Shown here: in pieces, positions 8,370 to 49,231 of the stretch
How the letters are laid out: each line of letters begins with the position of its first letter
Numbering within the stretch: position 1 is the stretch's first letter
Virus record (IMG/VR): IMGVR_UViG_3300033997_000092
Span: 62,001 to 126,000 of that record
Source of the DNA: a virus
Reading direction: 5' to 3' (one strand)
DNA: 64,000 nt
The notes under the pieces: generated by a model
Told to the model about the DNA's origin: nothing
The model's database searches: none
The model's input: only the letters and a program-made list of their open reading frames with translations
Made by a program: the position numbers and the translations under genes

Positions 8370-8876
8370 TTAGTCCGCCGTTAAATATACCTGACGTTCA
8401 GTAAGGCGCTGACGCTCTGTACGTAAACGGTTGTTAGGAGTATGGTAATTGCCATCAGTGTCTTGTATAAGAGCACCAATATCACGACCACGATATGACT
8501 GCGGGAAGTTATCACGTAAAGCGCACAGGAAATTGTAGAAGCGCTCCACTTCCGACTTCTTCTTGCCTATCCGTGCAAGGAAACGGACTTCAGGCTGCAG
8601 GTTCTCTAACAGCGTGACGATTGCCTGGTAGATATATTGGTGCTGCTGTTCATCAGGACGAGTAACGAAGCGCTCTACAGCAACTTTAAGGTAGTTTACG
8701 TCATTGTTTAAACGGCCAAACACCGTAGACCGTACGTTGTTATTGTATGCACCCGTAGTAGCAAGAATGTCCATGCACTGCTGCACACGCTGGCTTACCA
8801 AGTCCGCAAGCTGAGAATAAGGCATCACTGCGTCCTCAGTCACTACACGTGGATTGATTGTTATTTGGCATTTCAT
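8370..8876 (-). CDS. Hypothetical protein, 168 aa
   Basis: I do not recognise this protein. It begins MKCQITINPRVVTEDAVM, a short strand followed by VVTE-D that could be a variant of the proposed protease site, although the second residue and the residue after Glu differ from VSE-S. The rest is predicted mostly helical, with many Arg, Gln and Leu residues and a C-terminal Arg/Thr-rich segment. It overlaps the end of the 443-aa gene by 4 bases (ATGA-type) and precedes the candidate prohead protease, so a head assembly role is plausible. Confidence 0.75.
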   Translation of the reverse strand: MKCQITINPRVVTEDAVMPYSQLADLVSQRVQQCMDILATTGAYNNNVRSTVFGRLNNDVNYLKVAVERFVTRPDEQQHQYIYQAIVTLLENLQPEVRFLARIGKKKSEVERFYNFLCALRDNFPQSYRGRDIGALIQDTDGNYHTPNNRLRTERQRLTERQVYLTAD

Positions 8877-10204
8877 AAGAATTTCTTCTCCACATTAGCC
8901 CGTACCCAAGAACAACATTCATTGAAAGTCATAGGGACAGGATGTATTAATTGGACACCAGATTCACGAACTAACGTGTATGGCTGATTTTCTATTCTAC
9001 CACTGTGGAAAGCAGATTCATCGAAACCATCACGCAGCAATATATGCCAAGCACGACGATTGAATCCGCCTTTATTGCCGTTAGTGTCAAGTGTGCCGAT
9101 AATACGGTCATTAAAACGTATATCGTATCTTGTACGCTGTGCAAGAGGCAGACGAGCCATAGTTGAATTTACTTTGAATGACAGGCGAGGTCTAACAGCG
9201 GATTCAGACACCATTTCATCTGATTCAACATCGTCACTTTCTTCGTCACCAGTTTCTTCTTCGTTTTCTTGTTGAGCAGCAGCAAGCACTTCATCCAAAT
9301 CTTCTTGGCTGTACTGAGAAGTATCTGGCTTCCAGCCTTCTTCTTGCATTTGATAGATTGCTTGGAAACGAGCAACACGCTCTGCAATGCCATCAAGGTC
9401 TTGGTTACCTGCCCACAAAACGAATTCATCAAGCATAACACTGACTGGGTCATTTTCAGTATCGTTAGATTCTGATACCATGTCGGGATCTGCTACTTCA
9501 TCCAACTGTCCAGTGCCTTCAAGGGCCTCTGAAGGATTTTTGTAACCGAAGAACGCTCCGGCTAACGCACCAGCAACAGGAGCAAGTCCAGCAGCAACAG
9601 CTCCGACAGCAGCAGTACCAAGAAGCGTTTTAGTTGCATAGAAGGTTATCTTGTGTGCCAGATACTTACCACGCTGGTGTTCTTCTGTTACACGGTCTTC
9701 TTTCTTAGCATCGATATAATTGCCTAAAGCTTTTATGTTCTCTGGGCTAAGGCGCTGGCTGATATATTCAGTGGCACCACGTATATTATTTGCTAAAGCT
9801 AAAACGCCTTTGGCCAGACGGCTCTTGACATCAGGCAGCATAGATTCTGCGCGACGGTCTTCTTCCTTTCTGGCCAGCTTTTCATTTATTACTGCAATGA
9901 GGCCGCCGGATATAGGCAAGCCTCCAGTTGACTTACGTTGAATCTTTTTGTCGCGTTTATCCAGAGGAACCTTGTCACGATATTGTTTATTCAGGTCCTC
10001 AAAAGAAACACTCTTGCCTGAACCTGACGGCTTATCGTCATCTTCTTCAGGCTCACCAGAAGCTCCTGGAGGCTTTTGGTAAAGCTTCATCCTAGAGCGT
10101 TTATGTCGCGCTAAGTATGCTTGTTGCTCTTTATACGATTTGCGTCTCCACCACGCAGGAACATCTTCTTGCGATAAGGAGACAAGATCAAGAGTTATTC
10201 GCAT
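8873..10204 (-). CDS. Probable head or scaffold-type protein with two VSES cleavage motifs, 443 aa
   Basis: The ATG at 10204 is preferred because it gives MRITLDLVSLSQEDVP, similar to neighbouring N-termini, behind an AGGAAAA element; a start at 10249 would overlap the upstream gene by 62 bases. Order of regions: a WWRRKSYKEQQAYLARH segment (about 16-32), which resembles motifs in phage head/core proteins, a basic and acidic linker, an Ala/Gly hydrophobic stretch (about 200-225) that could insert in or contact a membrane, an acidic region, and a C-terminal domain of about 110 residues. Two MVSES sites occur, encoded at 9468-9479 and 9200-9211. Cleavage at both would release an acidic ~90-residue peptide and the C-terminal domain. 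Function is inferred from motifs and neighbours. Confidence 0.75.
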   Translation of the reverse strand: MRITLDLVSLSQEDVPAWWRRKSYKEQQAYLARHKRSRMKLYQKPPGASGEPEEDDDKPSGSGKSVSFEDLNKQYRDKVPLDKRDKKIQRKSTGGLPISGGLIAVINEKLARKEEDRRAESMLPDVKSRLAKGVLALANNIRGATEYISQRLSPENIKALGNYIDAKKEDRVTEEHQRGKYLAHKITFYATKTLLGTAAVGAVAAGLAPVAGALAGAFFGYKNPSEALEGTGQLDEVADPDMVSESNDTENDPVSVMLDEFVLWAGNQDLDGIAERVARFQAIYQMQEEGWKPDTSQYSQEDLDEVLAAAQQENEEETGDEESDDVESDEMVSESAVRPRLSFKVNSTMARLPLAQRTRYDIRFNDRIIGTLDTNGNKGGFNRRAWHILLRDGFDESAFHSGRIENQPYTLVRESGVQLIHPVPMTFNECCSWVRANVEKKFL

Positions 10205-11318
10205 TTTGAATGTTTTCCTGTTTACGCAGTTCTTCCAAGAAAAACTCAAGATTCTGCTTTAAACGAGGCTCAGCAGGGTTTTTGCTGTAGGCATGATGTG
10301 CATACTTTAAGGACTCTGCCTTATAGCCAGCATACCACATACACTCGCTCATTAAATCGTGGGCTTTCCACAGGTCGATACATGGGTCTTTGAATAAGAT
10401 TAAATTATTCTCCTCCACGCTAAACAAGACGTACAACTGACCGATAGCAGCAAAATAGTTCTTGCTGTCACGATAGAAAAGGGCCAGGTCAAAGTACAAG
10501 TCCTTGAAGTTTGGATTTAGTGCCAGCGCAGCGTGGAGATAACGTATGTCGGTTGAGCAATAGAACATTGTACGATATACTTCGACCTGTTGAGCATCAA
10601 AGTAACCATGGTCAGCATCAACAGCAGTAGCTAATACATCCAATGCCTCAGAGTATTGACCAGCGTAAAACAGTTCACGGCCATAGTAAAAGACACAACG
10701 GTGATCTTTGGGATCGGCAGTGTAATCTTCCTGCAGCAAGTGCATGTACTTACGTTCTTTGGATTCGTCTTTGTGGTGAAGAAGATTCAACCCAGTTGTA
10801 ACACTCACAACAGATACATTAGCAGACAGAACCTCATGGACCGAGTAACGCCATTCAAAGCCTTCACGACTATGGCCTTTAAGTTGGTTATAGCTTGTTA
10901 CTACATTACCATTTACATCGCACAGGTTCATGGTAGCATATAGAGCGAAGTCGGGAGAGTACGTAGGTGATTGCTTGAATTTCTCCAGTGAGCTATCTAA
11001 CAACTCTCTCCAGTCTTGCTCATAGAACCGTTCGTCCATATCCAAGAATACAAATGCGTCGGCATCTGTCGTAGTTTTGGCATAGTGCATTGCATAATTA
11101 CGGGCAACATTAAAGCGGAACGGCTTGAAGATAGCTTGAACAATTTCAAACTTGTCTTCAAGCCCAAGTAAGGTAGCCTGTTCTACAAACAAATCTATTG
11201 TATTGTCTTCACTTCCAGTGTCAACAACTCTTATATAATCGGCATGTTTGGCACACTCTAAAAATGTGCGTACATTGAATGATTCGTTTTTGCAGATGGC
11301 ATATAGCGCAACTTTCAT
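10188..11318 (-). CDS. Family 2 glycosyltransferase, 376 aa
   Basis: The N-terminal ~180 residues form a GT-A-type glycosyltransferase. ALYAICKNES (4-13) is the first strand, VVDTGSEDNT (31-40) is the nucleotide-binding turn typical of GT2 enzymes, and FLDMDERF (91-98) carries the DxD metal-binding motif. The C-terminal half is helical with TPR-like spacing. Such enzymes transfer a sugar from a nucleotide-sugar to a protein, lipid or modified base. Phages use them to decorate virion proteins or modified DNA; the acceptor here is unknown. The gene overlaps the 443-aa gene by 17 bases and lies in the same operon as the Nudix hydrolase and DNA ligase. Confidence 0.85.
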   Translation of the reverse strand: MKVALYAICKNESFNVRTFLECAKHADYIRVVDTGSEDNTIDLFVEQATLLGLEDKFEIVQAIFKPFRFNVARNYAMHYAKTTTDADAFVFLDMDERFYEQDWRELLDSSLEKFKQSPTYSPDFALYATMNLCDVNGNVVTSYNQLKGHSREGFEWRYSVHEVLSANVSVVSVTTGLNLLHHKDESKERKYMHLLQEDYTADPKDHRCVFYYGRELFYAGQYSEALDVLATAVDADHGYFDAQQVEVYRTMFYCSTDIRYLHAALALNPNFKDLYFDLALFYRDSKNYFAAIGQLYVLFSVEENNLILFKDPCIDLWKAHDLMSECMWYAGYKAESLKYAHHAYSKNPAEPRLKQNLEFFLEELRKQENIQNANNS

Positions 11319-11324
11319 AACTTG

Positions 11325-12254
11325 TTATCCTATTAATATTTTACCTGAGCGTTGCCAGTTGATACCAAAATGGTTTTGAACACGGATTGTTTGACGTTCA
11401 ACATACGAACGGTCAATGTAGCTGTAATATTCGGTGCGTTTAATACGTGGATAGTTGAAATACTCTATCCACAATTCAGGGAACTTGCCTGTTGGAATAT
11501 AAGGAGCGTTTGTACGTTCATCGATACCAACAAGATGTTTGTCATTACGGAATGTACGAGCAGGCAATGTTCTACCGTTGTCGATATAGCTGACGCTGGT
11601 GTAATAAATATATGCCCGTGTCTCATGCAACAGCCGTGTTTTCTGAACAATGTAAGGAACGCCGTCGCGCATTTCCAGTTCAGGACCACGCGTGTACCAC
11701 TTGAATACTTGATAACGTCCATTAACGTAACCAGGAGCATTCGGTATCATGCGTATTGTCATGCTGCTATAGTAGTTGCTATCACGACCAGGATAATACA
11801 CATCCCTTGTAGGAGAGTATATCTTCCATTCAGGTAAAAACGGCTGCTGTATGTTAACAAGCACTTTGCCGTAGTTGGACTTCTGAGTACCGTTAGAAAA
11901 CTGATAGTTGAAACAGTCTTGCTCTGTTGTTCTATCTACGTTTGGAGTGTACACGAAACCATTCTTGTACGTTGATAGTCCAACTATGCCTTTGCGGCCA
12001 GGTATTGCTAGAATAGGATCTAGCAGCCATCCACGCTGTACAGGCATACGGGCAGGAACTATAGTTGGGTCAGGGCTAGTATGATCGGGTACTGCATCTG
12101 GGTCATGGTCGTAATCGTAACGAGCGCCTTGACGCCAATGTTCAACAACAGGTATTTCTACCTTTTGTCCTACAATAACATTGACTTCAAGGTCAGGTGC
12201 GAAGGGTACATGATGACGCCAGTAGTCAGTAGCAATTACATGACTTCCGTACAT
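11325..12254 (-). CDS. Hypothetical virion-like protein with cadherin-like segment, 309 aa
   Basis: The protein is rich in Tyr, Arg, Pro and Asn, typical of beta-structured virion proteins. Around residues 105-140 it reads GFVYTPNVDRTTEQDCFNYQ followed by FSNGT, the pattern of tandem cadherin-like or VCBS Ig-fold domains (YTPN...D.F.Y...DG). The rest is not recognised. It begins behind AGGAGGCGCTTA, and its ATG overlaps the stop of the Nudix gene. A surface or tail role is likely but unproven. Confidence 0.7.
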   Translation of the reverse strand: MYGSHVIATDYWRHHVPFAPDLEVNVIVGQKVEIPVVEHWRQGARYDYDHDPDAVPDHTSPDPTIVPARMPVQRGWLLDPILAIPGRKGIVGLSTYKNGFVYTPNVDRTTEQDCFNYQFSNGTQKSNYGKVLVNIQQPFLPEWKIYSPTRDVYYPGRDSNYYSSMTIRMIPNAPGYVNGRYQVFKWYTRGPELEMRDGVPYIVQKTRLLHETRAYIYYTSVSYIDNGRTLPARTFRNDKHLVGIDERTNAPYIPTGKFPELWIEYFNYPRIKRTEYYSYIDRSYVERQTIRVQNHFGINWQRSGKILIG

Positions 12255-12733
12255 TAAGCGCCTCCTAAACGTGCCTCTAACAGTTTGTGCAGTGCTTCAA
12301 GGAATGGACGCTGCTGCTTAGGAAGACGTTTCATAGCACGTTTGTAATCGAACCACATACGTTCACGCCACTGTTCTGGGAATTCCATATGTACTTCATC
12401 AACACGCATGGCATACACTGTGACTTTTTGAGCCACACCAGTAAAGCCTTTACGGTAGTTGTAGCTGCCCAGCTTGATACTGGCTTTACCTTTAAGTCCG
12501 GCTTCTTCCCAGGCTTCAACTAAGGCACTCTGCTTCTTGCTCATGCCTTTTTCTTTCTTGCCTTTTGGAATACCCCACTTACCACTGTGACTGCTGCCAA
12601 TCAACATATACATGATATGGCCATCTTCAATGCGATAAGGTATCACACCTGTTTGCTTACGCACACGTTCCATCGGGTCAATTTCAACTGCGGAAGTTGA
12701 TTCCAATGTCTTCAAATTTAATACAAGTTTCAT
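12254..12733 (-). CDS. Nudix hydrolase, 159 aa
   Basis: Residues 58-80 match the Nudix box (G-x5-x-x7-xE-x2-EE-x-G-hydrophobic): GKKEKGMSKKQSALVEAWEE then AGL. Glu73, Glu76 and Glu77 are the expected metal ligands. Met replaces the first Glu, and Val the Arg of the RE pair, similar to some diphosphoinositol or diadenosine polyphosphate hydrolases. The preceding GKWGIPKG is also typical of that branch. Nudix enzymes cleave nucleoside diphosphates linked to another group. The substrate here is unknown (NAD-related products, RNA caps, Ap4A or alarmones are possible). The N-terminus MKLVLNLKTLES lies ahead of the domain and resembles the short hydrophobic N-termini of neighbours. The gene ends 1 base into the 309-aa gene. 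Confidence 0.85.
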   Translation of the reverse strand: MKLVLNLKTLESTSAVEIDPMERVRKQTGVIPYRIEDGHIMYMLIGSSHSGKWGIPKGKKEKGMSKKQSALVEAWEEAGLKGKASIKLGSYNYRKGFTGVAQKVTVYAMRVDEVHMEFPEQWRERMWFDYKRAMKRLPKQQRPFLEALHKLLEARLGGA

Positions 12734-12735
12734 AA

Positions 12736-14691
12736 TCAGACCTTATACTTTTTGCGGAATGCTTCCACAGTCATAACAGGGATACCTTGATCTTCTGCTT
12801 TTTCAACAGTGGAACTGGAGAAGCCGAGTTCCTTCACAAGGACAATATTTGTATCTTTACGCATCGATTGAACTACACCACCGTTCTCAGCAATACGTGC
12901 AGTTAAATCGTGGTCACGCACACCAGTGTAAGTAACACGGATGTTTTTCAACTTAGAACTAACAACAGTCTGTTTTACCTTTTTGATTTTAAAGCCGTAC
13001 TTAGTAACAAATTTCTGGAACTTGGGAAGTGACTCAGCGAACGTATTAGCTAACTCGTTGAAGCCATCTAACGCTTTGATTTTTCCACGTATCTGAGCTT
13101 TAGATAAGTCCCATCTGTGGACATCTGGGTAAGCGGCCTCTATATCAGCCAGACGATTACTGAACCCAACAAACATACCACTGGCATTAGCCAGTTTGCT
13201 GAATGTAAGCGAATCCAATGCTTTACGCAGTGAGGTCAGATACTCTTGTCCTTTGCGTTTTCCAAGACCATCGATAGCCTCGAAGTCTTCTATTTGCAGA
13301 TCAAGGAAATCTTGAAGGCGCGTGTAGCCACTATCAAAGAATTTCTTGATTGTGTTCGCTTTGAAACCGTCCACACCTATAGATGTAAAGAAATGCTCAA
13401 ACATCTTGATGCGTTTGGTGCTGTCTTTGGCATCGTCGGCATAGAACTCGACACCTTTTTGTGAATAGTTCATGTTGGGCAAATCAGGCTTTTTAGCACC
13501 TTTCAACACAGACACAACATAAGGTATTACTTGTCCACTACGCACGGCTTGAAGAACAGCGCCTTTACCTATTGGGCGTGGCTTTGTTCTCGCTTTATCT
13601 TCTTTGCTGCCTTTCAGATAGCCGTTCATGATATAGAAGGCATTGTGTCCAGTGAAGTTACTTACAGTAACACCACCGATGCGCGTAGGCTTAATGTTGA
13701 TAACAGGCTTGATTTTACCTGTACGGCTTACTTCCCAAGTCACACCTGTACAAACAACTTCTACCATACTAGCAACGCTGTTCTCTTTAAAGGAGACGGC
13801 GTGCTTTGGATTGGCTACTGTTACAGGGTAATACTTGTCCTGCTCAACAACAAGTCCATCTATTTCAAAACGACTTGCTTTGATTCGCTTGGCAAGATGT
13901 GCGCTGAGTGAAGCTTGGTCAATCGTTTTGAACGTCTTGTATGGAGGTACTTCAAATCCAAGTGACTCAAGATACTTAAACTGTTCGCTGATTGGCTTCT
14001 TGCTGTTTTTACCTTCAAGAATACGGAAAGCCATAACACTAAGATGCTTTGTATAATTGGCATACTCAGCATAATCTTTGCTGGTCGGAAGCTTTAAAAT
14101 AATACCACCGGCTGCATTTCGGACTGCTGTAAATTTGCCCCCAGCATCTTCATGCAAGTGCTTATCGAAAGTGTCAACAGCCGCAAGTATCTCGACACGG
14201 ACAATGAAGCGATCTTTAACGCTGATACGCTTTGGTATTTTTAAGTTAGCCAGCACATGCGAAATGTCTTGACCTTTAGTGCCGTCACCACGAGTGAAAA
14301 CTTGGTTGGGCTTGCCACCGGTATACACAATCTCACCAGCCATTCCATCTTCTTTATCACTGACAAAATAAGGACCTGGGTACTTTTTAGCAAACAAGGC
14401 AATCTTTTGCTCGGTCTTTATTTTAGTCAAGCTGGACATAGGAACAGGCAGAGGAACTTCAGCGCGTTTGTTGCCTACTTTAGCTCCTACTTTTTTGAGT
14501 CTTACTGACTTAGGAAAGCGTTCGCCGTATATTTCCATAACACGGTCAAACACATCATCAGTAAGGGGCTTTTCGCCACTGTTGTAGTATTTCTTGTCAA
14601 TGTAATCCAGTGCTTCATCCAATACTTTACGGGTCAGCGTCCATGCTGATTCTGGATCGCGGGTCAGTTTGTTTACAAGAGCTTTTGACAT
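12736..14691 (-). CDS. ligA: NAD-dependent DNA ligase, 651 aa
   Basis: Seals nicks in DNA using NAD+. Domain order matches bacterial LigA. Domain Ia: YYNSGEKPLTDDVFD (35-49), which binds NMN. Adenylation domain: VSDKEDGMAGE (110-120) with catalytic Lys113 in KxDG form, TRGDGTKGQDIS, and FEIDGLVV. OB fold: VEVVCTGVTWEVSRTGKIKP. Helix-hairpin-helix: FEAIDGLGKRKGQEYL. C-terminal BRCT domain: IRVTYTGVRDHDLTARIAENGG region. The four-cysteine zinc finger of cellular LigA is missing; only one Cys is visible in the relevant half. The length is close to the ~670 residues usual in bacteria. A CTGTAAAT promoter-like motif lies 31 bases upstream of the ATG. It works with the phage polymerase and clamp encoded elsewhere in the window. 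Confidence 0.93.
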   Translation of the reverse strand: MSKALVNKLTRDPESAWTLTRKVLDEALDYIDKKYYNSGEKPLTDDVFDRVMEIYGERFPKSVRLKKVGAKVGNKRAEVPLPVPMSSLTKIKTEQKIALFAKKYPGPYFVSDKEDGMAGEIVYTGGKPNQVFTRGDGTKGQDISHVLANLKIPKRISVKDRFIVRVEILAAVDTFDKHLHEDAGGKFTAVRNAAGGIILKLPTSKDYAEYANYTKHLSVMAFRILEGKNSKKPISEQFKYLESLGFEVPPYKTFKTIDQASLSAHLAKRIKASRFEIDGLVVEQDKYYPVTVANPKHAVSFKENSVASMVEVVCTGVTWEVSRTGKIKPVINIKPTRIGGVTVSNFTGHNAFYIMNGYLKGSKEDKARTKPRPIGKGAVLQAVRSGQVIPYVVSVLKGAKKPDLPNMNYSQKGVEFYADDAKDSTKRIKMFEHFFTSIGVDGFKANTIKKFFDSGYTRLQDFLDLQIEDFEAIDGLGKRKGQEYLTSLRKALDSLTFSKLANASGMFVGFSNRLADIEAAYPDVHRWDLSKAQIRGKIKALDGFNELANTFAESLPKFQKFVTKYGFKIKKVKQTVVSSKLKNIRVTYTGVRDHDLTARIAENGGVVQSMRKDTNIVLVKELGFSSSTVEKAEDQGIPVMTVEAFRKKYKV

Positions 14692-14714
14692 CGCTTCTTT
14701 TCCAAAGGGTTCTT

Positions 14715-14734
14715 TAATACTGATTTACAGTGTC
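14715..14734 (-). promoter_or_regulatory. Candidate phage promoter upstream of DNA ligase
   Basis: The minus strand carries CTGTAAATC (14730-14722) followed by AGTATTAAAG, a near match to the CTGTAAATAC motif found at the same distance (25-31 bases) before three other replication-type genes. No terminator separates it from the 581-aa gene upstream, so it would add a start within a longer transcript. Confidence 0.45.
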
Positions 14735-16480
14735 CTAGCTCACAATAGGATCGGAGGACCGTTTAAACTTAACTACGTCAGCCTGTACGTCTTTGAATTC
14801 CTTAGGAGTAAGTTTCCTGACGATCTTAACAGAGTCAACAAACTTAGCTTTCTTAGTCGTATCAATGCGTACAGTGTGGTACTCGCTAGGTTCATTGGTC
14901 AAGTCATAGACTTTGTACACGGTGACGTTGTTGTTTGCTGGAAGTGGATAGATGTCAAGGACCACGAACTCACGTTGCTCTGTGGTATCTTTGTTGAAGA
15001 CAACCACATCACCTTCCTCTGCTTCTGCTGATTCTTCTTCCTCTTCAGGTTCTTCCTCAACATCAGCATCCTCTAAATCCGCGCCGTCTTCATCGTCCTC
15101 GTCTGAGTCTTCGTCGCCGGCATCTTCTTCATCCGTGTCAGTATCTTCTTCAGATTCTTCATCCTGTTCGTCCGTGTCCTCGTCGGCGCTTTCTTCTTCC
15201 TCTTCCTCAGAGTCGTCAGATTCTTCGTCATCGTATTCCAATTCAGATTCATCTACTTCTTCCTCTTCTTCATCGGAAGCATCGTCCTCTAAATCTTTGA
15301 GGTTAGCCTTACGGGCTTCAGCGCGTTTCTTGTCGATAACTTGATCTAACAAGGACAATGGGTCAACTTCACCATCAGATAAACTGTCCACAGCTGGATC
15401 AAATTGGAATTGTTCAGTAGGACCGGATTGCTCCTGTGGAGTGTCCAAATCAAGGTCTGTATCAAGGGCATCGTCATCAAATTCCACTACTTCTGGAACA
15501 TCACGTTTCAGTTTCTTTTGTTGTTCTTCTTTTTGAGCCTTTAACAGCTCTTTGAGTTTTTCGTCTGTCATAACAATCGGAGTAGATCGGCGCTTGGATT
15601 CCTTGATTGCATAGGCAGCGGCCGATTCTTTTAAACGCTGTTTTTCGTCCAAGCGCTTCTTACGAGCTTCGGCACGGGCCTGTTTAGCAAGTTCGCGTTC
15701 TTTCTCCTGTTGTTTTTCTTTTGCTTCACGATCTTTAGCCGCAGCTATTTCACGTGCCTGACGTCGTTCAGATACGGCCTCACGGTGATTCTGCTTTTTG
15801 TTATTGCGGCGAATCTGTTTGAGTTCTTCGACAGTAAACTTACCTGTAGGCCATTTGGTCTTAGGTAAGACTTCTGTGTTCTCAAGCATCGGGCCCCAAG
15901 TATCAGGATTTATTACCCAACGGCGGCCTTCAGTATCCATATAAATGCCGCCCTTTGTAGGAGCAACATAACGGACACCGAACACATCTCCACGATTAAT
16001 AACGTGGAACAAATCGCGTGTTTTGCCTATCTTCAAAGGCTTGCTGCCAGTGTATTTACGCCACTGATAGTTTGCTAAATCCACACCTTTAGTGCTTTCG
16101 TCGTATAGCTTACGTGCTGGTTTGAAGTAATCAGAGTCCCACGCACGGCGCTCAACAAGTTTAGTTCCTTGTAAGTTTCTTGGAGCACGTTGTCTGCCTT
16201 CACGGACATTAACCAGTTTAGGCTTTTTGATCTCGTCACTGCGAGAAGTCAGGAATTCCATTTCCTCAGGTTCAATTGTGAAATTGACATGATACAGGTC
16301 AGGCAGTATGACGTAAAAACGACCGCCTTTGATAGGCCGAATACCGTACACACTACCATTACTGATCTCAGCAGCAGATCCGTGGGTTACCAACTTACGT
16401 TTGGTACGTCCACTGTACTGATACCAGCTAAACTTATCCAATTCTTCAAATTTGGCTGATAACGCCACGAATCTAAGCAT
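14735..16480 (-). CDS. Repeat-containing charged protein with long acidic tract, 581 aa
   Basis: This protein is not a recognised family. It has two related N-terminal modules: one around 17-67 (FSWYQYSGRTKRKL ... NGSVYGIRPIKGGRFYVILPD) and one around 137-197 (YQWRKYTGSKPLKI ... RGDVFGVRYV ... WVINPD). Then come a Lys/Arg/Glu/Gln-rich helical region likely to be a coiled coil (about 220-320), a very acidic Asp/Glu/Ser stretch (about 390-500), and a small C-terminal domain. A VSE-R site occurs in the basic region. Such highly charged proteins are often scaffold, head-core or inner-body proteins in large phages; that is inference. The ribosome binding site is AGGAG with ATTGAA spacing. Confidence 0.75.
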   Translation of the reverse strand: MLRFVALSAKFEELDKFSWYQYSGRTKRKLVTHGSAAEISNGSVYGIRPIKGGRFYVILPDLYHVNFTIEPEEMEFLTSRSDEIKKPKLVNVREGRQRAPRNLQGTKLVERRAWDSDYFKPARKLYDESTKGVDLANYQWRKYTGSKPLKIGKTRDLFHVINRGDVFGVRYVAPTKGGIYMDTEGRRWVINPDTWGPMLENTEVLPKTKWPTGKFTVEELKQIRRNNKKQNHREAVSERRQAREIAAAKDREAKEKQQEKERELAKQARAEARKKRLDEKQRLKESAAAYAIKESKRRSTPIVMTDEKLKELLKAQKEEQQKKLKRDVPEVVEFDDDALDTDLDLDTPQEQSGPTEQFQFDPAVDSLSDGEVDPLSLLDQVIDKKRAEARKANLKDLEDDASDEEEEEVDESELEYDDEESDDSEEEEEESADEDTDEQDEESEEDTDTDEEDAGDEDSDEDDEDGADLEDADVEEEPEEEEESAEAEEGDVVVFNKDTTEQREFVVLDIYPLPANNNVTVYKVYDLTNEPSEYHTVRIDTTKKAKFVDSVKIVRKLTPKEFKDVQADVVKFKRSSDPIVS

Positions 16481-30172: not shown

Positions 30173-31822
30173 TTATGCTGCGGTTACATCCGTCATACGG
30201 CTGCCTTTCGGATTCAAGTTAAAGCGAACATGAATACGCTTGGTAGCTATAACAGGATCGTAAATCATATCAAGGACCAAATCGTTGTTGGCGATAATGT
30301 CCGGGGTATTATTACGCTCGTCGCAGATGTTGCTGTACTCATAAACACCACGATTGTTCTGAATCGGCGTCATAAAGTCATCTGCGGCTGTTTTAACCTG
30401 TGCCCGTAAGAAACGGTCCTGCGGGTCAAACAGCTTGTTGGTAGTGAACCGCTTGCTGGCTTTGAGAATGTACAGTGACAAACGAACCACGTTACAATCC
30501 TGGAACGAACTGGCACGGTTATACAGTGTGTACTGTGACCAAACGCAGTAGCCCAATCCTTGAGGCAGTTTACGCACATGGTTAACCTGAGCTTCGGATA
30601 AGGCATCACGCGCACCTTGGTCGTAGCTGTGGCGTAAGCCAAGTACATTGAGGATACCCACGTTGATACCAGCAGGAGCAAACCACAGGAATTTAGTATT
30701 GTCAGTGTACGCCATAACAGTAGCAATGTAGCCGCTGATAGGAACATAAATCTGACGATCCGTAAATTCATCGTAGATAAGTACGTCAGGAGCATAAATG
30801 CCGCCGTAGAAAGTATTGGCATTCAATGTCTGACGACGGTAAGTGATTGCATCTGCAACTTGTTGCTTGTCGCTTGGCATATCCAGAATAGCGTAAGCAT
30901 CGCCACGCTGTTCAGCTACCTGCAGCATCTTGTGGTGGATGTTGTGGTTAGTGTAGCCAGAGTTTACCAAAATACTAACTTCAATACGCTCAGGGTCATT
31001 AAACTTATCCCAAGCTTGGATGATTTGTGCGTCAGTAGCACGGGCACCATCTAAACCGCCGTTCATTGTCTCACTGGCACTTGTAACGATGTCGAATACA
31101 GGACACAGTTCGTTGTTTTTGAAGCGGATATAACGAGAACGTGAATTGATTACGTCTTCGATATACATTTGATTGCCGTTTTCATCAACTTCGTAGTTAC
31201 GAGATACTACAAAGCGTTCGGTTGCACCAACGCCAGCGATTAACGCACCGTACCATACACTCACAACAAAGTGGCGAGGATTGTGGCCGTTACCGCGCAG
31301 AGCAACACCTTGAGGATTAGATGGAGCAACAGATATAGTGATATTGTTGTTCCATTTACCAGGGTTAGCTGCACAGAAATAGCCCATGATGTTTGCAACA
31401 CCTGGCTGAGTAGGCAAGAAGCCAACTGTATTCAGTGGATCGTCAACACCTTGAGGAGTATTGGTTCCCTGGATAGTGTTGTTTACAAGTCGAATAACAG
31501 GATTTTGTGCAGCGGTATCGTCAACAGTAAGGTAACTTAGTGCTGTTTTTGCACCGTTGACAACACGTAAGAAGTAAGCACGGTTCGCTACTTTCAAAAA
31601 CTGATTTAAGCTGTAACCAGCGAAGCCGTAGCGTTGTGGATTCAATGTTCCAAACTTGGCCTGCCTGTCACCGGTGTCAGTAACCAGAACAGGTACCCCG
31701 ACTTCACCCATTTCCGCTTCACCCACAAAGGCAGCCACAGAACTGCTCACGTTGGGTATACGTTCGCTCAAATCAATTATTTTACCGTAGACGCCCGCGG
31801 AGGGATTGGATGGATTAAGCAT
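30173..31822 (-). CDS. Tail sheath protein, 549 aa
   Basis: Forms the contractile outer tube of the tail. The N-terminus reads LNPSNPSAGVYGKIIDLSER, then a strand with VSSSVAAFVGEAEMGEVGVP and DTGDRQAKFGTLN, the classic sheath N-terminal pattern. The middle has DRQIYVPISGYIATVMAYTD and FAPAGINVGILNV, near the universal W(K)APAG motif. The C-terminus contains TNKLFDPQDRFLRAQVK and NNTPDIIANNDLVLDMIYDP, again typical. I chose the ATG at 31822 because it follows CCTTTAGGAGAC, rather than a start 15 codons earlier inside the leader inverted repeat. Its presence shows the phage is a myovirus. It heads the tail gene series. Confidence 0.92.
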   Translation of the reverse strand: MLNPSNPSAGVYGKIIDLSERIPNVSSSVAAFVGEAEMGEVGVPVLVTDTGDRQAKFGTLNPQRYGFAGYSLNQFLKVANRAYFLRVVNGAKTALSYLTVDDTAAQNPVIRLVNNTIQGTNTPQGVDDPLNTVGFLPTQPGVANIMGYFCAANPGKWNNNITISVAPSNPQGVALRGNGHNPRHFVVSVWYGALIAGVGATERFVVSRNYEVDENGNQMYIEDVINSRSRYIRFKNNELCPVFDIVTSASETMNGGLDGARATDAQIIQAWDKFNDPERIEVSILVNSGYTNHNIHHKMLQVAEQRGDAYAILDMPSDKQQVADAITYRRQTLNANTFYGGIYAPDVLIYDEFTDRQIYVPISGYIATVMAYTDNTKFLWFAPAGINVGILNVLGLRHSYDQGARDALSEAQVNHVRKLPQGLGYCVWSQYTLYNRASSFQDCNVVRLSLYILKASKRFTTNKLFDPQDRFLRAQVKTAADDFMTPIQNNRGVYEYSNICDERNNTPDIIANNDLVLDMIYDPVIATKRIHVRFNLNPKGSRMTDVTAA

Positions 31823-31850
31823 CGATAGTCTCCTAAAGGTCAGTGAAACA

Positions 31851-31871
31851 GTATTTGAAACTGTCAAATAC
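31851..31871 (-). promoter_or_regulatory. Perfect inverted repeat in the tail sheath leader
   Basis: GTATTTGA and TCAAATAC flank a 5-base spacer, 29 bases upstream of the sheath ATG. It could be an operator, part of a promoter, or a 5' stem-loop stabilising an abundant mRNA. Confidence 0.45.
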
Positions 31872-39131: not shown

Positions 39132-39134
39132 AAA

Positions 39135-42354: not shown

Positions 42355-42357
42355 TAG

Positions 42358-42384: not shown

Positions 42385-42390
42385 GGGTTC

Positions 42391-42906: not shown

Positions 42907-42918
42907 TTGGTTTCTCCG

Positions 42919-45900
42919 TTAACGAATTGAATCAAGCGCTTCAACTACAGACTCGACGTTCGTAATAACGTAGCCGGCTTTAGTCAGTTCACGCAGTTTG
43001 TCTTTGGCTTGGCGCTTGGTAGCAGCAAAGAACACTGTCATACCTGGATGCAACTGCCACTTAGCAGTAGTGCCAGGAATAGTGTTACCCAATACCTTAC
43101 GTACAACTGGGTTAGTTGCCAAATCAACTACTATACGCAGGCGGTCATGTAACACGACAGGATATGCCTTGAAGGATTTCTTGTCGGTTGCTTCTTGCTT
43201 GCGAGTACGGAAGAAGTTAGGCAGCTTGCTTTGTACTTCCAGAGCCTGTTTAGCATCGAAGCCCATACGACCTGAATCTTCAAACACGTCCATAACCTTT
43301 TCTATGCGTTTTTCCGTGTCAGGAGTGACTTGGAATTTAGCTTCGATAAAGTCGATGAACTTGTCGAAGTGACGGTAGTTCTTGAAGTCACAGTAAGCGA
43401 ACTCACCGTGTGGGATAAACCCAAACTTCTTGAGGTCTAACGAATCAGGATCGTTGTTGGTAGCATGAATACTAATGAAGCCGTTGTATACAGACGGATG
43501 TAACTTGAGTTTCATGTCTTTGGTAGGCACAGTTTTGGTTGCGCCTTTTTGTCCAGCAACAGGAACTACTTTATTCACAGCTACAGTACCATCTTTAACA
43601 GGTTTCACACGTTTTACTTTTTCGACTCCATCATTCACAGGCTTGCCTGCAACTTTATTGGACTTACGAATTGTCTTACGTTGTGAAGTACGTACAACTT
43701 GTTCGCCTGTCTCTTTGTTTGACTTGCGTTTGGTTGCACGGGCCTCGGCCATATCCGTGACTTCCTTCTCCTCACGTTCAGCGGACTTCTCGATACGTTT
43801 CTTGGACTTGTCATCCTTGTACGGATCTTCCGCAGTGAAGAAGCGGTCGTAATTTGACGGATTGGCTTTAGTAGCCACAAATACGTTGTCGATACGGTGA
43901 CGTAATTCTTCATCGTTGGCACGGTAACGTATCTTCACGTTGCTGATTGGGTCAACAGGATCAGGAACACGCTCACCATCAATAGTGACGTAGTTGATAG
44001 TGTAACCTGTAACGACACCTGTACCAAAGCCTGTACGCACAGGAAGCAAGTTCATCAACTCGTCCATACGCTCTACAAAGCCTTTAGTGTTTTTAACCCA
44101 TTCACGGAAACGCACAAGACCCCAACCATCAGGATCAGGAATACGTTGGTTAGGCATAATCGGGAACTGTTCCATGCGTTTGAAGTCACTTGGAATAGCT
44201 GGTACGTTCAGATCAATCATCTGCGCTACCGTAGTACGGCGCATTTCAGTGAATTCCTGACGTTCGATAGTTGCCAATGTAGCCTTCGCTTGGAAGTAAT
44301 CCATGAAGTCGCCCATTGTGTTTAAGTCACGCAGAGTTTCCAAGCTCATTGGGATACGATCAAGTACAATGCCGTTAATAGGCTCGTAGCGTGGATTACC
44401 CTTTTCATCGAACTTGGTCTTGTCTACTGTCTTCCACATCAGACGCGCAACTTTCGCTACTTCAGTTGTGTTGTTTGTCATCAGCCAATCGTTGTAGATT
44501 ACTTCACGTGCCATGTCACCAGGCTTGCCGTTTTCTACCTTAGCTGCTTTAGGATCTGGACGGAAAATACGTGCACCAGATTGCTCTAAGTCACCAGGAG
44601 ACCACGGAGTATCACTACGAATAATACGGCTACCCATCTGCAGGTTGTGACCTTCAGCGATTGCCTGTTCGTTGGCGACAAGAATATCCACATTCGGATC
44701 GTTAGCGAAGTCATCTAAATTCTGCCACTTGTTCTCACCGTAACGACCTACTTCACCGTGGAAGCGGCGAGCGCGGGCTTTGTACTTCGGAGGCAAGTGT
44801 TCAAAGATTGCATCCACACAACGAGTGTAACGGCAGAAAACGATAACTTTGCCGCGCATTTCAGGCTTCCAGTTCTCAGTATCTTTATCTGGAGATACAT
44901 CAGAAGGAGGAGTTTCCTTACGTGCAAGTTGTGCAGTTTCATCGGCAGCTATCGGTAGAGGACGACGCATGTAGTAAGCACCGTTATACCGTACAACATC
45001 GTACTCACGGGCAATCATACCGCGTTCCCAATCCACAACAGCACCAGGAGCAATGTTTGTTCCAGCAGTGTACTTACCAACAGTAAAATGTGTATCAAGA
45101 CGCTCAATCACTTTGCCGATCTTAGCAGGCATGAAGTCAAACTTCTTAATGCCGGCAGCGTCAGCAGCAATCCGGAATGCAGATTCACCCCAAGGGTCAG
45201 TAACAAGTTGTTCTACTGCTTGTAAGTAGGTTTGCAGACCAATAGAACCCAATGATGCAAGTTCATCATTGTCATCCATGTCAAGGTCACCGCCACCTTC
45301 TTCACCATCAGAAGTTTCGTCATCAGTTTCATCATCACCATCTTCAGAAGAAGTCTTACGCTTGTTCTTAACAGCGTTTTCCAAGTCTTCCAATGTCTGC
45401 TTTAACAGAGCTTGGTAAACTTCGCTATGAAGCAAGTTACCTGCGTGACCACCTTCATCCAAATCAAAATCAATAAAGATGTCGATTGGATTAGGCAACA
45501 TGAATGCCCACTCTTTACGCTTCAGAGTAATAACCGCAGCATATTTGGACAGCTTACTACGAACCACAAGTGGACCGTCTTCGGCTTTCATATCGATGCC
45601 TGATGTCTTCGGTGTTTTGTAGATATACGATGTCAACAGTGCGGATTGGCCAACAACGTCAGTTAATACGTCATGTACCAATGTACCTGTTGCCAGACGT
45701 GCAAACTGAATGCCGTCCATCGTAAAGACTTCTTTGACTGCTTTGTGTACAACTGATACGTGGTTGGACTCTGGGTCAAACTTCTTAGCTTTGTGCGATT
45801 CGTCCATCAAAACATAGTTCGGGTTGAACTGTTTGATAAACTCTACACCGCCAAGTGCTTTAACACGACGAGGTCCGTACATTACACTGTAAGGTTTCGA

Positions 45901-48705
45901 CTTCAGGAAGTTTATACCAACAGCAAGGAATGTGTTACGTGGTGCATTCTTGATCAGGTCTGTCAGACGTTCAGGACCCCATTCTTCAAAGGTCACTGTG
46001 GTAATAGGAATTACGTTCCAATTACCGTTAGTCAACATAGCAGTATCTTCTGCCCAGTTTTTACACAGCTTGTCAGGAGCAACTACAACAGCAAACAGGC
46101 GTTGACCCATTGCATGTAATTCTTCCGAACAGGCTAAGATGTCAAGAATACCTGTCGCTGTTTTACCGCCACCAGGATGTACGTCAAGGATAGCGTACTT
46201 AGGACGACGGCGCAGTGATTTGTGAGCTTTGACTTGGTGAGGGAACACTTTAGCGCCTGACACGATACCAGGAGCAACAATGTTATCCACATCAATAGAT
46301 TCGTCAGGCATATTGCTTTCGTAAATCTGCTCAGCACGGCTAAAATATTCCAAGTAATTCGGAATGTATTTGCTAAACATTACTGCCAACGGCATGACGT
46401 CCTGTGACAGTGAACTGAACGAAGGCAACAAGTTGTTTTCCACATCAGCAGCAGAACGCTTAGGGAAGAACAGGCTCTTTGTATCGACAGTCAAGATAGC
46501 CGCGCACATATTACGGAACAGACGACCACCGAAGTAGTTGTACACGTTACCGAAGTCTGCCATACGCGATGTCTTATCATTGATATACAGGTAAGCTGGG
46601 TGATCTTGTACCTCAGCGCCAGCATTATCAGCACCGACGTTTTCAGCTACTACACGGAACAAGTTTGAACCGCGATGACCTGTAGCATCAGACAAAGCAG
46701 CAAGCAAGGCACCCATAACAACGTGGCCTTCATGCAAACCGCCATCGAAGCCGCCAATCAGACCAGGAAGCAAAGCCATCTGTTCATCGAACATTGTACG
46801 GTAGATGCCGACATCAAGAGGACCAAGCAACGAGCCTGATTCGTTCTCTTGTTTTTGTTGCTCAAGTGTCTGACCAACCAACTCACCAAGTGAAGGCAAT
46901 TTGCCTTTACGTGCATAGTAGGCATATGTGTCGAACAGTTTTAAGAAGCGACGACCGGCGATCATGCTTACTGGAGCAAAACGTGCTGTTCCTGTAGGCA
47001 GTATCATATCAAGCACACGGCCTATCAGCGACTCGGATGATATTTCATCACGGCCATCCATACCACTTTCGTGCATGAATTGTTTGATTGTCTTCTGTTG
47101 GCTGCGCTCGCCTTCTTCTTTGAAGTCAAAGCCTAAAGCATCTGCGATAATCAAATCGTCAGGAGGCGTTGCACCTAACAAGTCATCGAAGGCAACGGAT
47201 GTACCACTACACGACAGGATAGTGTTGTAGTCCCAGCTGAATGATAACAAGGCACCAGAGTAGGCAGCAACTTCATCTTTGAACAGCTTGACATCAGAGT
47301 CAACTGTCAGGTTTTCGTTGTGCATGATCAGGTACTTACTGTTCAGCGTGTCGGTGTCCAACAGCGGAGCATCGGCTTCGTAGATTTTACGCAATAAGGC
47401 ATCGACAGCGTTTTCGTAATCCTTAGCAACGTCCAAGTTCTCAGACTCAGGACCTGTAGGCATGTAGATAATACGGCCTTTAGGATCTACAGTCAAGCCA
47501 GCATCATTGACACGGCCTTCATCAACGTGCATACCTGAATCCAAGCGGGCACGCTTTAAAGCTGCTACTTTGTGTGTAGGGATAACGAAGCGAGGCATAC
47601 GTGCGTAGTTACCACGACCTTTCTTCTCAGACCCACGCAAGCCTTTAGGACGAACGTAGATACGGGCCCACTGACGAATCATCGTGTCGATGCAGTAATG
47701 GATCAGTTCCAGTTGTTCGCTTTGGCAGATGTACTGACAAACTTCTTTGCGGAAGTTAAGAGCGAATGAGAACGATACTGATGTACCTAAGTACAGGCCT
47801 TCAGGACTGATCAATTCTTCATTGTTTGGCTTATCAGCATTCGGATTGTCTTTCTTGGCTACCAAGTAACGGCGCCATGCAGCGTAAAGATCCTGCATAG
47901 GTTCGATGCAGATCAACACGCTATAGAATTCACCGATAACACTTACGTTATTTGGAAGATTCTTGAAGCCAAGATCGATATTAAGACCTGACTCGGTCTT
48001 AAATATGGTATTCAGTTCTTCAAAATTGAACAACAGAGGTAACTGAACAAACTGACGCTTGTGGGCAGTTTTGTAGGATATTTTGTTGTCCAGCAATTTA
48101 GACATAACGGCACGTACAGCTTTCATCAAACGAAGCGATAAAGGTGTCTGGTAATTAGACATAGCCTCTTCTTCATATAATGAGTTTGTACGATCAATAA
48201 CGATTGAAGCATTGCGGATTGGACGGATGCTTGCACCGCCAGCATGGGGCAGGCCACAGAACATCACATCATAACCGCCTTTGTAGCGAGTAGATGGTTT
48301 AATAACGTGTTCGGTACCTGCACACATGGCACCCATAGCGTTATCTAAAATCGTCTGGACATCATTACCCAGTGCAACAGACTCTTGAATCTGTTTGAAG
48401 ATTGATTTGATTTCTGCCTGTTGTGCGTCTTCAGGCATATCTTCCAGACGAGCGCCCCGGTCCAACAGTATGCGAGTAAGGCTCAACATAGCATTTACAG
48501 GACCCGACAGCATCATTATGTTTTGGATTACCTGCTTGAGACCGTTAGCGCCGCCTACGCCCTGCTTGCTTGTAGTTGGAAATACAGAAGTTTGGTACGC
48601 ATCGTGGATCTCTTTTTTCAAAGAGATAGGAGCAATACGACTCGTCATAAAATTTTCTGTATCTTCAACCACAGATGACGCAGAATATAATTGTGGTGTT
48701 TTCAT
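42919..48705 (-). CDS. Giant SNF2-type superfamily 2 helicase protein, 1928 aa
   Basis: About residues 830-1400 form a two-lobed SF2 ATPase: FPHQVKAHKSL, Walker A HPGGGKTAT (about 842-850), motif II MDESHKAKK (about 970), then ATGTLVHDVLTD (motif III), VIVFCRYTRCVDAI (motif IV), NEQAIAEGHNLQ (motif V) and GARIFRPDP (motif VI). The first ~830 residues are a large unrecognised domain with no methyltransferase or nuclease motif seen, and the last ~400 include a Lys/Arg/Glu-rich stretch. A long acidic insert (DGDDETDDETSDGEEGG) splits the ATPase lobes. Very large helicase-containing proteins in other phages can be virion-carried (for example DarB of P1), so packaging is possible, but replication or transcription roles are equally plausible. 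Confidence 0.88.
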   Translation of the reverse strand: MKTPQLYSASSVVEDTENFMTSRIAPISLKKEIHDAYQTSVFPTTSKQGVGGANGLKQVIQNIMMLSGPVNAMLSLTRILLDRGARLEDMPEDAQQAEIKSIFKQIQESVALGNDVQTILDNAMGAMCAGTEHVIKPSTRYKGGYDVMFCGLPHAGGASIRPIRNASIVIDRTNSLYEEEAMSNYQTPLSLRLMKAVRAVMSKLLDNKISYKTAHKRQFVQLPLLFNFEELNTIFKTESGLNIDLGFKNLPNNVSVIGEFYSVLICIEPMQDLYAAWRRYLVAKKDNPNADKPNNEELISPEGLYLGTSVSFSFALNFRKEVCQYICQSEQLELIHYCIDTMIRQWARIYVRPKGLRGSEKKGRGNYARMPRFVIPTHKVAALKRARLDSGMHVDEGRVNDAGLTVDPKGRIIYMPTGPESENLDVAKDYENAVDALLRKIYEADAPLLDTDTLNSKYLIMHNENLTVDSDVKLFKDEVAAYSGALLSFSWDYNTILSCSGTSVAFDDLLGATPPDDLIIADALGFDFKEEGERSQQKTIKQFMHESGMDGRDEISSESLIGRVLDMILPTGTARFAPVSMIAGRRFLKLFDTYAYYARKGKLPSLGELVGQTLEQQKQENESGSLLGPLDVGIYRTMFDEQMALLPGLIGGFDGGLHEGHVVMGALLAALSDATGHRGSNLFRVVAENVGADNAGAEVQDHPAYLYINDKTSRMADFGNVYNYFGGRLFRNMCAAILTVDTKSLFFPKRSAADVENNLLPSFSSLSQDVMPLAVMFSKYIPNYLEYFSRAEQIYESNMPDESIDVDNIVAPGIVSGAKVFPHQVKAHKSLRRRPKYAILDVHPGGGKTATGILDILACSEELHAMGQRLFAVVVAPDKLCKNWAEDTAMLTNGNWNVIPITTVTFEEWGPERLTDLIKNAPRNTFLAVGINFLKSKPYSVMYGPRRVKALGGVEFIKQFNPNYVLMDESHKAKKFDPESNHVSVVHKAVKEVFTMDGIQFARLATGTLVHDVLTDVVGQSALLTSYIYKTPKTSGIDMKAEDGPLVVRSKLSKYAAVITLKRKEWAFMLPNPIDIFIDFDLDEGGHAGNLLHSEVYQALLKQTLEDLENAVKNKRKTSSEDGDDETDDETSDGEEGGGDLDMDDNDELASLGSIGLQTYLQAVEQLVTDPWGESAFRIAADAAGIKKFDFMPAKIGKVIERLDTHFTVGKYTAGTNIAPGAVVDWERGMIAREYDVVRYNGAYYMRRPLPIAADETAQLARKETPPSDVSPDKDTENWKPEMRGKVIVFCRYTRCVDAIFEHLPPKYKARARRFHGEVGRYGENKWQNLDDFANDPNVDILVANEQAIAEGHNLQMGSRIIRSDTPWSPGDLEQSGARIFRPDPKAAKVENGKPGDMAREVIYNDWLMTNNTTEVAKVARLMWKTVDKTKFDEKGNPRYEPINGIVLDRIPMSLETLRDLNTMGDFMDYFQAKATLATIERQEFTEMRRTTVAQMIDLNVPAIPSDFKRMEQFPIMPNQRIPDPDGWGLVRFREWVKNTKGFVERMDELMNLLPVRTGFGTGVVTGYTINYVTIDGERVPDPVDPISNVKIRYRANDEELRHRIDNVFVATKANPSNYDRFFTAEDPYKDDKSKKRIEKSAEREEKEVTDMAEARATKRKSNKETGEQVVRTSQRKTIRKSNKVAGKPVNDGVEKVKRVKPVKDGTVAVNKVVPVAGQKGATKTVPTKDMKLKLHPSVYNGFISIHATNNDPDSLDLKKFGFIPHGEFAYCDFKNYRHFDKFIDFIEAKFQVTPDTEKRIEKVMDVFEDSGRMGFDAKQALEVQSKLPNFFRTRKQEATDKKSFKAYPVVLHDRLRIVVDLATNPVVRKVLGNTIPGTTAKWQLHPGMTVFFAATKRQAKDKLRELTKAGYVITNVESVVEALDSIR

Positions 48706-48715
48706 TTGCTTCCCT

Positions 48716-49231
48716 TTACATATAATGCTGAGACCAGAGTGGAATAGGCGTCAATTCATTGGACGTAGCCCAATCGATAAGATGGCGTCCATAGATACGG
48801 CGCTTCTGGACAGAGTACGTTGACCAACGATCACTGTCTCCGTAGAAAGACAAGACTGTCGCACTATCCATCTTATCTAATGTATTTACAATTTCCTCGC
48901 GGATACGGTTTTCAGCATCAGCTTCAGATATTGTAACCATAGGGTCAGCAGGCACATCCACTTCAGAATTGCCTCTGTCTAATAGTTCAGCAATAACCTC
49001 TACTAAGCTATCTACAGTAGTTAGGTCTTCATACGACCTGCCTAAACGGACAGGCGAAACACCGTGCTTAACAAGAGCAGCAACAATGTCCTGAGACTCA
49101 CTGCTTTCACTTACCATGCTGGGACTGTCGAGTGCCTGACGTGCCAGCATTCCAGCAAGTCCAGGTTTCTCAGACAGAGTTTGCAAAGCAGAGACAGGAG
49201 CCGTACCTAATGTAATGGTCGTCTTCTTCAT
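48716..49231 (-). CDS. Hypothetical protein with VSES and ISEA protease-like sites, 171 aa
   Basis: No family recognised. The N-terminal ~40 residues end in SMVSESSES (VSES encoded at 49103-49114), the same MVSES core as in the 443-aa protein and similar to the shared leader. A second possible site is VTISEADAE near residue 102. Cleavage would give a ~65-residue central fragment and a C-terminal domain ending in WATSNELTPIPLWSQHYM. The match suggests it is processed by the same protease and therefore assembled in the head. It immediately precedes the giant helicase gene. Confidence 0.75.
   Translation of the reverse strand: MKKTTITLGTAPVSALQTLSEKPGLAGMLARQALDSPSMVSESSESQDIVAALVKHGVSPVRLGRSYEDLTTVDSLVEVIAELLDRGNSEVDVPADPMVTISEADAENRIREEIVNTLDKMDSATVLSFYGDSDRWSTYSVQKRRIYGRHLIDWATSNELTPIPLWSQHYM

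Follow-up and report, generated by a model that had tools for sequence, protein, structure and literature searches.

The question raised by this locus is whether a short Ser-Glu-Ser motif, present at the N-termini of several neighboring gene products and inside others, outlines the substrate set of one maturation protease, and which of its residues matter. The window (the whole analyzed stretch of 64,000 nucleotides) belongs to the record of a 261-kb PaBG/NCTB-like jumbo myophage. A preliminary description had located MVSES twice in a 443-aa protein and once in a 171-aa protein. Searching the window with a degenerate DNA pattern recovered exactly these three loci (9201–9214, 9468–9481 and 49104–49117), all on the minus strand, against 0.22 expected, and none of 100 shuffles reached three. 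The comparison of the genome-wide [FM][VI]SES count with shuffled proteomes that it had proposed gave a result far above chance: nine matches in the whole record against 0.26 in within-protein shuffles, tests of this type ignoring shared ancestry and Erwinia phages being over-sampled. The nine comprise five N-terminal leaders, the two copies in the 443-aa protein, the one in the 171-aa protein and an FVSES in the portal protein, which is encoded outside the window. In NCTB, JA29, Yoloswag and PaBG the same pattern occurs 0–1 times each, without clear enrichment.

N-terminal tags on unrelated proteins

Five minus-strand genes of the window start with a closely similar leader: MKIKVFVSESA (2420–2452, gene 1697–2452), MKIKIFVSESS (2738–2770, gene 2477–2770), MKIKVFVSESS (3183–3215, gene 2784–3215), MKIKVFVSESA (3920–3952, gene 3224–3952) and MKINVMISESA (6915–6947, gene 6171–6947). 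The start codons of the analyzed genes were assigned automatically. The leaders agree at the protein level but show 2–5 synonymous codon differences and have dissimilar upstream DNA, which argues for selection on the leader peptide and disfavors their origin as recent DNA duplications. Tag-like N-termini also occur on the minus strand in a 298-aa protein (5037–5933; MMKVTLALDPLQGALVSTSA, with Thr at the middle position x of the S-x-S core), in a NUDIX-type hydrolase, so assigned from reading its sequence (12254–12733; MKLVLNLKTLESTSA), and in a 581-aa protein (14735–16480; MLRFVALSAKF). The first 12 residues of one tag read MKIKVFVSESAG.

Matches to [VILFM]S.S are concentrated at protein starts, with 112 in the first six-residue bin against 5–29 in each later bin. 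When the tag was removed, the tagged proteins fell into 38 similarity clusters, i.e. the same short peptide is carried by otherwise unrelated proteins. Among 119 tags the residue at x was Leu in 33, Glu in 20, Val in 16 and Thr in 10, and Ala directly followed the motif in 42% as compared to a background of 6.9%. The enrichment of the motif in the head set is partly circular, the leaders having helped to define that set, and the weight is instead carried by the orthologue tests described below.

Two PaBG virion proteins have tag-like N-termini, gp83 (MLIKINLLEAVAAK) and gp202 (NSLSAA), both detected in virions (for gp202, PMC7412058 Table 1). The homologue of gp202 in the window is a helicase-like protein of 1928 aa (42919–48705, minus strand; 30% identity along almost the entire length) with QLYSASS at its N-terminus. 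The gene for the 171-aa protein lies beside it (48716–49231, minus strand); its MVSES, found with the degenerate DNA pattern, occupies residues 39–43 (49103–49117), and no homologue of the protein was found in NCTB, JA29, Yoloswag or PaBG. We found no description of the tag or the consensus in the open-access literature.

Since tags occur on many unrelated proteins, the N-terminal element could be a sorting tag that directs proteins to the core of the prohead or to some other compartment of the phage, bound yet uncut, with its resemblance to internal sites being secondary. Uncut capsid-targeting signals are conceivable; for the N-terminal packaging signal of P1 DarB the excerpted text of PMC9024508 mentions no cut. 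The distribution of the motif inside other proteins bears directly on this explanation.

Internal sites in head proteins

In the 443-aa multi-domain head-cluster protein (8873–10204, minus strand), whose homologues were aligned, the N-terminus bears a tag, MRITLDLVSLSQ, and two sites lie further inside. Both sites were located on the minus strand with the degenerate DNA pattern. Site 1 (DMVSES-ND, residues 242–246, 9467–9481) falls within a linker at residues 230–249 and site 2 (EMVSES-AV, residues 331–335, 9200–9214) within a linker at residues 319–336, both of low confidence in AlphaFold2 (pLDDT <50) and predicted to be disordered. Counterparts of site 1 in homologues are ESKS, TSES, SLSA or VSLS at roughly the same place. 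At linker 2, 14 of the 15 fused homologues in the non-redundant set have S-x-S-[ASG] against 2.1 expected, with Glu over-represented at x (10/15). The C-terminal domain that follows site 2 (residues 336–443, 8876–9199, minus strand) is a separate gene of ~113 aa in PaBG-type phages (PaBG, L091, L092, L106, L115, L117 and L135), and the free-standing PaBG-type gene begins just downstream of the position of site 2. The proposal that MVSES marks a domain or linker boundary thus holds up for the 443-aa protein, with both copies in predicted linkers and site 2 ending where the separate gene starts.

The preliminary description further named a motif in the major capsid and scaffold proteins outside the window as something that would support its proposal. 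Sites of this kind occur in the portal and in a scaffold-like acidic protein; VSES is absent from the capsid protein of this phage. Of 44 non-redundant portals, 30 have [S/A]-x-[S/A] on the portal arm, where 5.6 would be expected, and the remaining 14 lack the strict pattern; variants among orthologues include FVSESN, FVSQSA, FRSTSS, LKSLSA, FEATAG and WQATAG. The acidic protein is a putative scaffold encoded near the capsid gene. Across its acidic region, SxS[SA] occurs 15 times in a set of five homologues, where 0.98 would be expected, a count reached in 0 of 2000 shuffles. Two further matches in this protein, HLLSESS and VIVSTSS, are zinc-ribbon-like and were set aside as probably structural.

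The propeptide of the capsid protein follows [S/A]-x-[S/A] less regularly; the site region is highly variable and some members fit loosely. In this phage FASMS ends at residue 82 of 370. Maturation reduces the mass of the PaBG capsid protein by about 20% (PMC7412058); cleavage behind RAPS, at residue 71 of 368, would take away 19%. The gp27 protein of phage G, annotated without a propeptide, begins in the same region as this candidate cut. A conserved ALSxSTGEINA near residue 36 was rejected as the cut position, the PaBG mass loss being better matched by a cut at ~71–82.

A pure sorting tag would leave the interdomain linkers, the acidic scaffold-like region and the expected vicinity of the capsid-protein cut unexplained, and we regard this explanation as unlikely.

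Conserved residues and the head maturation protease

The presumed enzyme is a head maturation protease of 264 aa (7573–8367, minus strand; phrog_18299, E 1.4e-86), whose gene lies beside those of the 443-aa protein and the leaders in the same cluster. The order glycosyltransferase, 443-aa gene, small gene(s), protease is kept in five named phages. The protein shares 49.6% identity with its NCTB counterpart, and H131 (in EHxNKD) and S188, which are invariant in 24 sequences, could form the active site. Its AlphaFold2 model (pLDDT 82) matches prohead serine proteases in BFVD, a set of predicted models only, with E values of 7e-7 and weaker, and neither sequence nor fold searches gave a match in the PDB. 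The N-terminus of the protease itself reads A-P-A-F-D-I-S here and S-x-S-F-D in relatives. Among 34 sequences Ser or Ala occupies P3 in 31 and P1 in 30, with 13 different residues at P2.

A HELAH metalloprotease-like head-cluster protein (3963–5018, minus strand; HExxH in all homologues listed) was also considered as the maturation enzyme and set aside, the head maturation protease being present and better supported. In the metalloprotease-like protein SLSEA separates the N-terminal and catalytic parts; SLSE is inconsistently conserved among homologues, and its use as a site is only suggestive. The other weaker variants proposed as sites, MVAE-S, VTE-D and TISE-A, did not gain ground, resemblance being all that speaks for them.

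The preliminary description had formulated the consensus as hydrophobic-[VI]-S-E|S, with the cut after Glu. A T4- or phiKZ-like protease of this specificity would agree with the head proteases of T4, phiKZ and SPN3US, which are known to cut after Glu (PMC9026906, PMC5694885), and with the preference of the SPN3US enzyme for Ser at P1' (PMC10052503). Glu is also found at most candidate sites of this phage, where it is over-represented at x. Orthologues, however, keep both Ser (or Ala) residues, and L, T, Q, V, K, H or D frequently stands in for Glu. This pattern is seen on the portal arm, at the N-terminus of the protease, in both linkers of the 443-aa protein and in the tags with which dozens of unrelated proteins begin. 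Even in this phage the capsid protein (FASMS), the protease (FAPAF) and several tags (VSLSA, VSTSA) are without Glu. P1 is usually the main specificity position of proteases, yet Glu at that position is unconserved. The upstream hydrophobic residue is likewise dispensable in the linkers (PRSESA, DSESA, QSLSAA). We consequently rejected the Glu-dependent consensus and consider a cut after Glu at [FM][VI]-S-E|S improbable. The best reading of the comparisons is that the true signature is small-any-small, [S/A]-x-[S/A], possibly with a preference for Glu at x.

It is very unlikely that the matches are a coincidence of composition, arising from disordered linkers rich in Ser and Glu together with a single, recently duplicated family of leader genes: the acidic linkers are of low complexity and the zinc-ribbon-like matches do look structural, but shuffles that keep composition yield far fewer matches and the tagged genes, besides their codon and upstream differences, are mostly unrelated downstream of the leader.

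The idea of one protease substrate set is well supported with the revised signature, since the motif occurs in leaders, portal, interdomain linkers and the acidic scaffold-like protein, with a head maturation protease gene in the same cluster. Most likely the signature marks proteins bound for the shell and the places where the phage's own protease would trim them. We judge it probable that an N-terminal head-targeting tag operates together with [S/A]-x-[S/A] maturation sites cut by the 7573–8367 protease. A protein destined for the prohead would carry a tag that runs roughly M-K/Q-hydrophobic strand, [S/A]-x-[S/A], small residue, and the same signature would lie at propeptide ends or in linkers of the portal and capsid protein, the acidic scaffold-like protein, the 443-aa protein and the protease. 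The protease would recognize [S/A]-x-[S/A], and the likely cut is behind its second small residue (S-x-S|A), one residue beyond the cut proposed earlier. Such cleavage would remove tags and propeptides and split the 443-aa protein into parts; in this phage VSES would be the form whose middle residue, free to vary, is Glu. The sequences show the motif, where it lies, how it is conserved and that it falls in predicted linkers; from this we infer the cleavage, the bond cut, the enzyme and the tag-driven targeting.

A broader generalization is about as likely to fail as to hold. Throughout a clade of jumbo myophages (PaBG, NCTB, Yoloswag, JA29 and metagenomic relatives), one N-terminal address tag of ~10 residues ending in a small-x-small cut site would load dozens of unrelated proteins into the capsid, including a helicase-like protein and in some members a DNA ligase, and a head protease not needing Glu at P1 would then trim them.

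Comparison with known head maturation systems

If correct, the signature would provide a sequence rule that predicts, among hundreds of uncharacterized proteins of these phages, those that travel in the capsid and are probably injected, which otherwise needs virion proteomics. It would also mean that Glu at P1 is not universal in the specificity of giant-phage head proteases, and a phage lineage other than that of T4 would have supplied a short cargo-loading tag that can be tested.

Prohead maturation in T4, with the gp21 protease and the capsid targeting sequence (CTS) of internal proteins, is similar in the short propeptides at the N-termini of internal proteins not related to each other, the multiply cut scaffold and the removal of a capsid-protein propeptide (PMC9026906), features that are here predicted from sequence, and in the location of the protease gene close to the scaffold and capsid genes. 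T4 differs in cutting at L/I-X-E|, whereas here the small residues are conserved and Glu is not, and profile comparison with gp21, as a single sequence, detected no similarity between the proteases (hhalign probability 0.5%). In the giant phages phiKZ, 201phi2-1 and SPN3US, as in the model proposed here, head proteolysis has numerous substrates, the portal and internal proteins among them (PMC5694885, PMC10052503), with a small residue at P3 (S/A/G-X-E; A-X-E) and, in SPN3US, Ser preferred at P1'. Cleavage there is after Glu, whereas P1 here appears to be Ser or Ala, and most SPN3US propeptides have 111–254 residues as compared to tags of about 10–15 residues on many proteins here.

Among phage prohead serine proteases of the HK97/XkdF/COG3740 kind, the predicted fold of the enzyme matches proteins annotated as prohead protease, COG3740 or XkdF; this structural similarity is distant (TM about 0.35–0.5) and no shared substrate motif is known. 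As for targeting, the first 30 residues of P1 DarB suffice to bring a foreign protein into the capsid, and in that system no N-terminal consensus was found among the Dar proteins (PMC9024508), whereas here one short consensus recurs widely. Since the proteases of T4, phiKZ and SPN3US all cut after Glu, a cut of the S/A type would be a new specificity in a known kind of system.

Motif frequency and conserved residues in head proteins

The window covers positions 62001-126000 of a viral record of 261,032 bases, from a jumbo myophage with NCTB, PaBG, JA29 and Yoloswag among its relatives. The preliminary description compared MVSES with the FVSES and MISES leaders and derived from them and from weaker variants the consensus hydrophobic-[VI]-S-E|S for one maturation protease. 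A DNA pattern for MVSES gave three matches, two in the 443-aa protein (8873-10204, minus strand) and one in the 171-aa protein (48716-49231, minus strand), each within one or two bases of where it had been placed. Genome-wide, [FM][VI]SES occurs nine times in the phage proteome versus 0.26 in shuffled sequences that ignore ancestry (7 versus 0.17 in a gene selection lacking two leaders); genes and their starts were called automatically. When the rest of the record was read, the sole copy outside the window was found in the portal protein, at residues 37-41. The exact motif was not clearly enriched in the related phages NCTB, JA29, Yoloswag or PaBG (0-1 copies each), a first hint of a wider motif of which this is the local form.

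The portal arm reads FVSESN in the window phage, FVSQSA, FRSTSS, LKSLSA or FESLSA in relatives, and FEATAG, WQATAG or WEAVAG in PaBG-type phages. The pattern [FWML]x[SA]x[SA][AGSND] was present in 30 of 44 non-redundant portals (5.6 expected; maximum 16 in 500 shuffles), a count that overstates the evidence somewhat because the pattern was written after viewing the sequences. The relatives sampled are predominantly Erwinia phages, and none of the shuffles takes ancestry into account. SxS[SA] occurs 15 times in five homologues of an acidic, scaffold-like protein encoded close to the capsid gene (0.98 expected; 0 of 2000 shuffles). The capsid protein is the least regular context, with HSQSA, HSTSA, HSHSG and HSESS around residues 70-82 in Erwinia phages, VSES in JA29, VATAS and KALSA elsewhere, and FASMSN in the window phage. 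As read from these sequences, Glu is not the conserved part of the motif: the Ser/Ala positions of the proposed consensus are kept in relatives, whereas its Glu varies across portal, protease, linkers and tags. The 171-aa site and the weaker variants listed with it found no individual support.

The protein at 60959-63061 of the whole record (window 1-1061 and upstream) and its homologues, encoded near the capsid gene, are annotated as ATPase in PHROGs. The protein is largely acidic and of low complexity, with interspersed SxSS sites and two zinc-ribbon-like stretches, and looks more like a scaffold. The genome also encodes two tail-sheath-like paralogues (window 30173-31867 and record 55853-57475), both matching the same sheath proteins of relatives.

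The maturation protease and N-terminal tags

The head maturation protease (7573-8367; phrog_18299, E 1.4e-86) is 39-61% identical to its relatives, with His131 and Ser188 invariant. Its AlphaFold2 model (mean pLDDT 82) matches predicted prohead serine proteases; nothing in the PDB matched the model, and profile comparison with T4 gp21 failed. The protease N-terminus is [S/A]-x-[S/A]-F, with S/A at P3 in 31 and at P1 in 30 of 34 sequences and 13 different residues between; the window protease reads A-P-A-F. The 443-aa gene lies just upstream, and the order glycosyltransferase, 443-aa gene, small gene(s), protease is conserved. The major capsid gene is outside the window, beyond the downstream end of the leader cluster.

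Short N-terminal tags end in [S/A]-x-[S/A]. Of 119 strict tags, 33 have L in the middle position, 20 have E, 16 V, 10 T and 10 G, with other residues in the rest; Ala comes next in 42%, versus 6.9% elsewhere. One orthologous protein carries LSTSA, VSVSA, LSESA or ISASA across relatives, and its apparent counterpart in the window phage LSLSA. The tagged gene sets differ by relative (MKIKVFVSQSS, MKIRVFTSTSA, MKIFVSQSAE, MKIKISLSA and others), many lying in the protease region; grouped by similarity, the sequences beyond the tags form 38 clusters. Any two of the five window tags differ by 2-5 synonymous codons, and their upstream DNA is dissimilar. The PaBG virion proteins gp83 and gp202 (PMC7412058) begin with MLIKINLLEAVAAK and MGSLFTLNSLSAA, respectively; the 1928-aa helicase-like protein of the window is a homologue of gp202. 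No description of the tag turned up in the open-access papers searched, which include few subscription journals.

Tag-like N-termini (MKVRLSISASVS, KIMISLSSSG) also occur on DNA-ligase-like genes of relatives (L116:4627-6597, L119:4604-6583, L132:2814-4862), which suggests possible packaging of ligase into the head in some of them; the window counterpart (12736-14691) has no such N-terminus. Outside the window, record 129511-129732 encodes a 73-aa protein in which a tag (MKVTLHLDKLVSES) is joined to a highly basic peptide. In the 253-aa family phrog_31583, this peptide matches the C-terminal 60 residues and nothing else. Many tagged proteins contain a small domain starting W[YF]xYxG (e.g. FSWYQYSGRTK, CDWYRFEGKR), possibly a small beta-barrel (14735-16480, 3963-5018, record 54240-54929, and L020:21812-22480 in a relative).

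Linkers and gene fission in the 443-aa protein

Both MVSES sites of the 443-aa protein (site 1, residues 242-246; site 2, 331-335) fall in low-confidence predicted linkers, at 230-249 and 319-336. Linker 1 reads VSESN in the window phage and ESKSS, ESKSN or TSESS in the nearest relatives. For linker 2, 14 of 15 non-redundant homologues of the fused form have S-x-S-[ASG] versus 2.1 expected, again a somewhat overstated count for a pattern written with the sequences in view; x is E in ten and otherwise L, D, N or T. The domain starting immediately after site 2 is a separate gene of ~113 aa in PaBG and in relatives L091, L092, L106, L115, L117 and L135, and a cut at site 2 would yield the same product. 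This gene fission is an indirect argument, and the strongest single one, for processing of the 443-aa protein.

A second motif, roughly W[WF]xxL...YIxxHPxSKYAK, stands right after the tag in many tagged proteins and may serve as a further module for targeting or binding (8873-10204; in relatives L084:12977-13579, L086:15228-15848, L086:17265-17648 and L088:16902-17879).

Proposed position of the cut and known maturation systems

The simpler reading would place the cut behind the second Ser/Ala (S-x-S|A), because the Glu proposed as P1 varies freely and is followed by S/A and then a small residue. In the 368-residue PaBG capsid protein, cleavage at residue 71 (by count on the sequence), just after RAPS, would remove 19%, which fits the reported loss of ~20% (PMC7412058). 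Since Glu is over-represented at x in the window phage, the protease may prefer Glu at P2 or, with lower probability, at P1.

In its way of working the proposed system would resemble the maturation of T4, with its capsid targeting sequences (PMC9026906), and the head proteolysis of phiKZ and SPN3US (PMC5694885, PMC10052503). A jumbo-phage review, where it treats head proteolysis, gives the phiKZ consensus as S/A/G-X-E. The T4 and phiKZ/SPN3US proteases cut after Glu, whereas the sequence motif of the window phage and its relatives has no conserved Glu, and on specificity the system should not be classed as T4/phiKZ-type.
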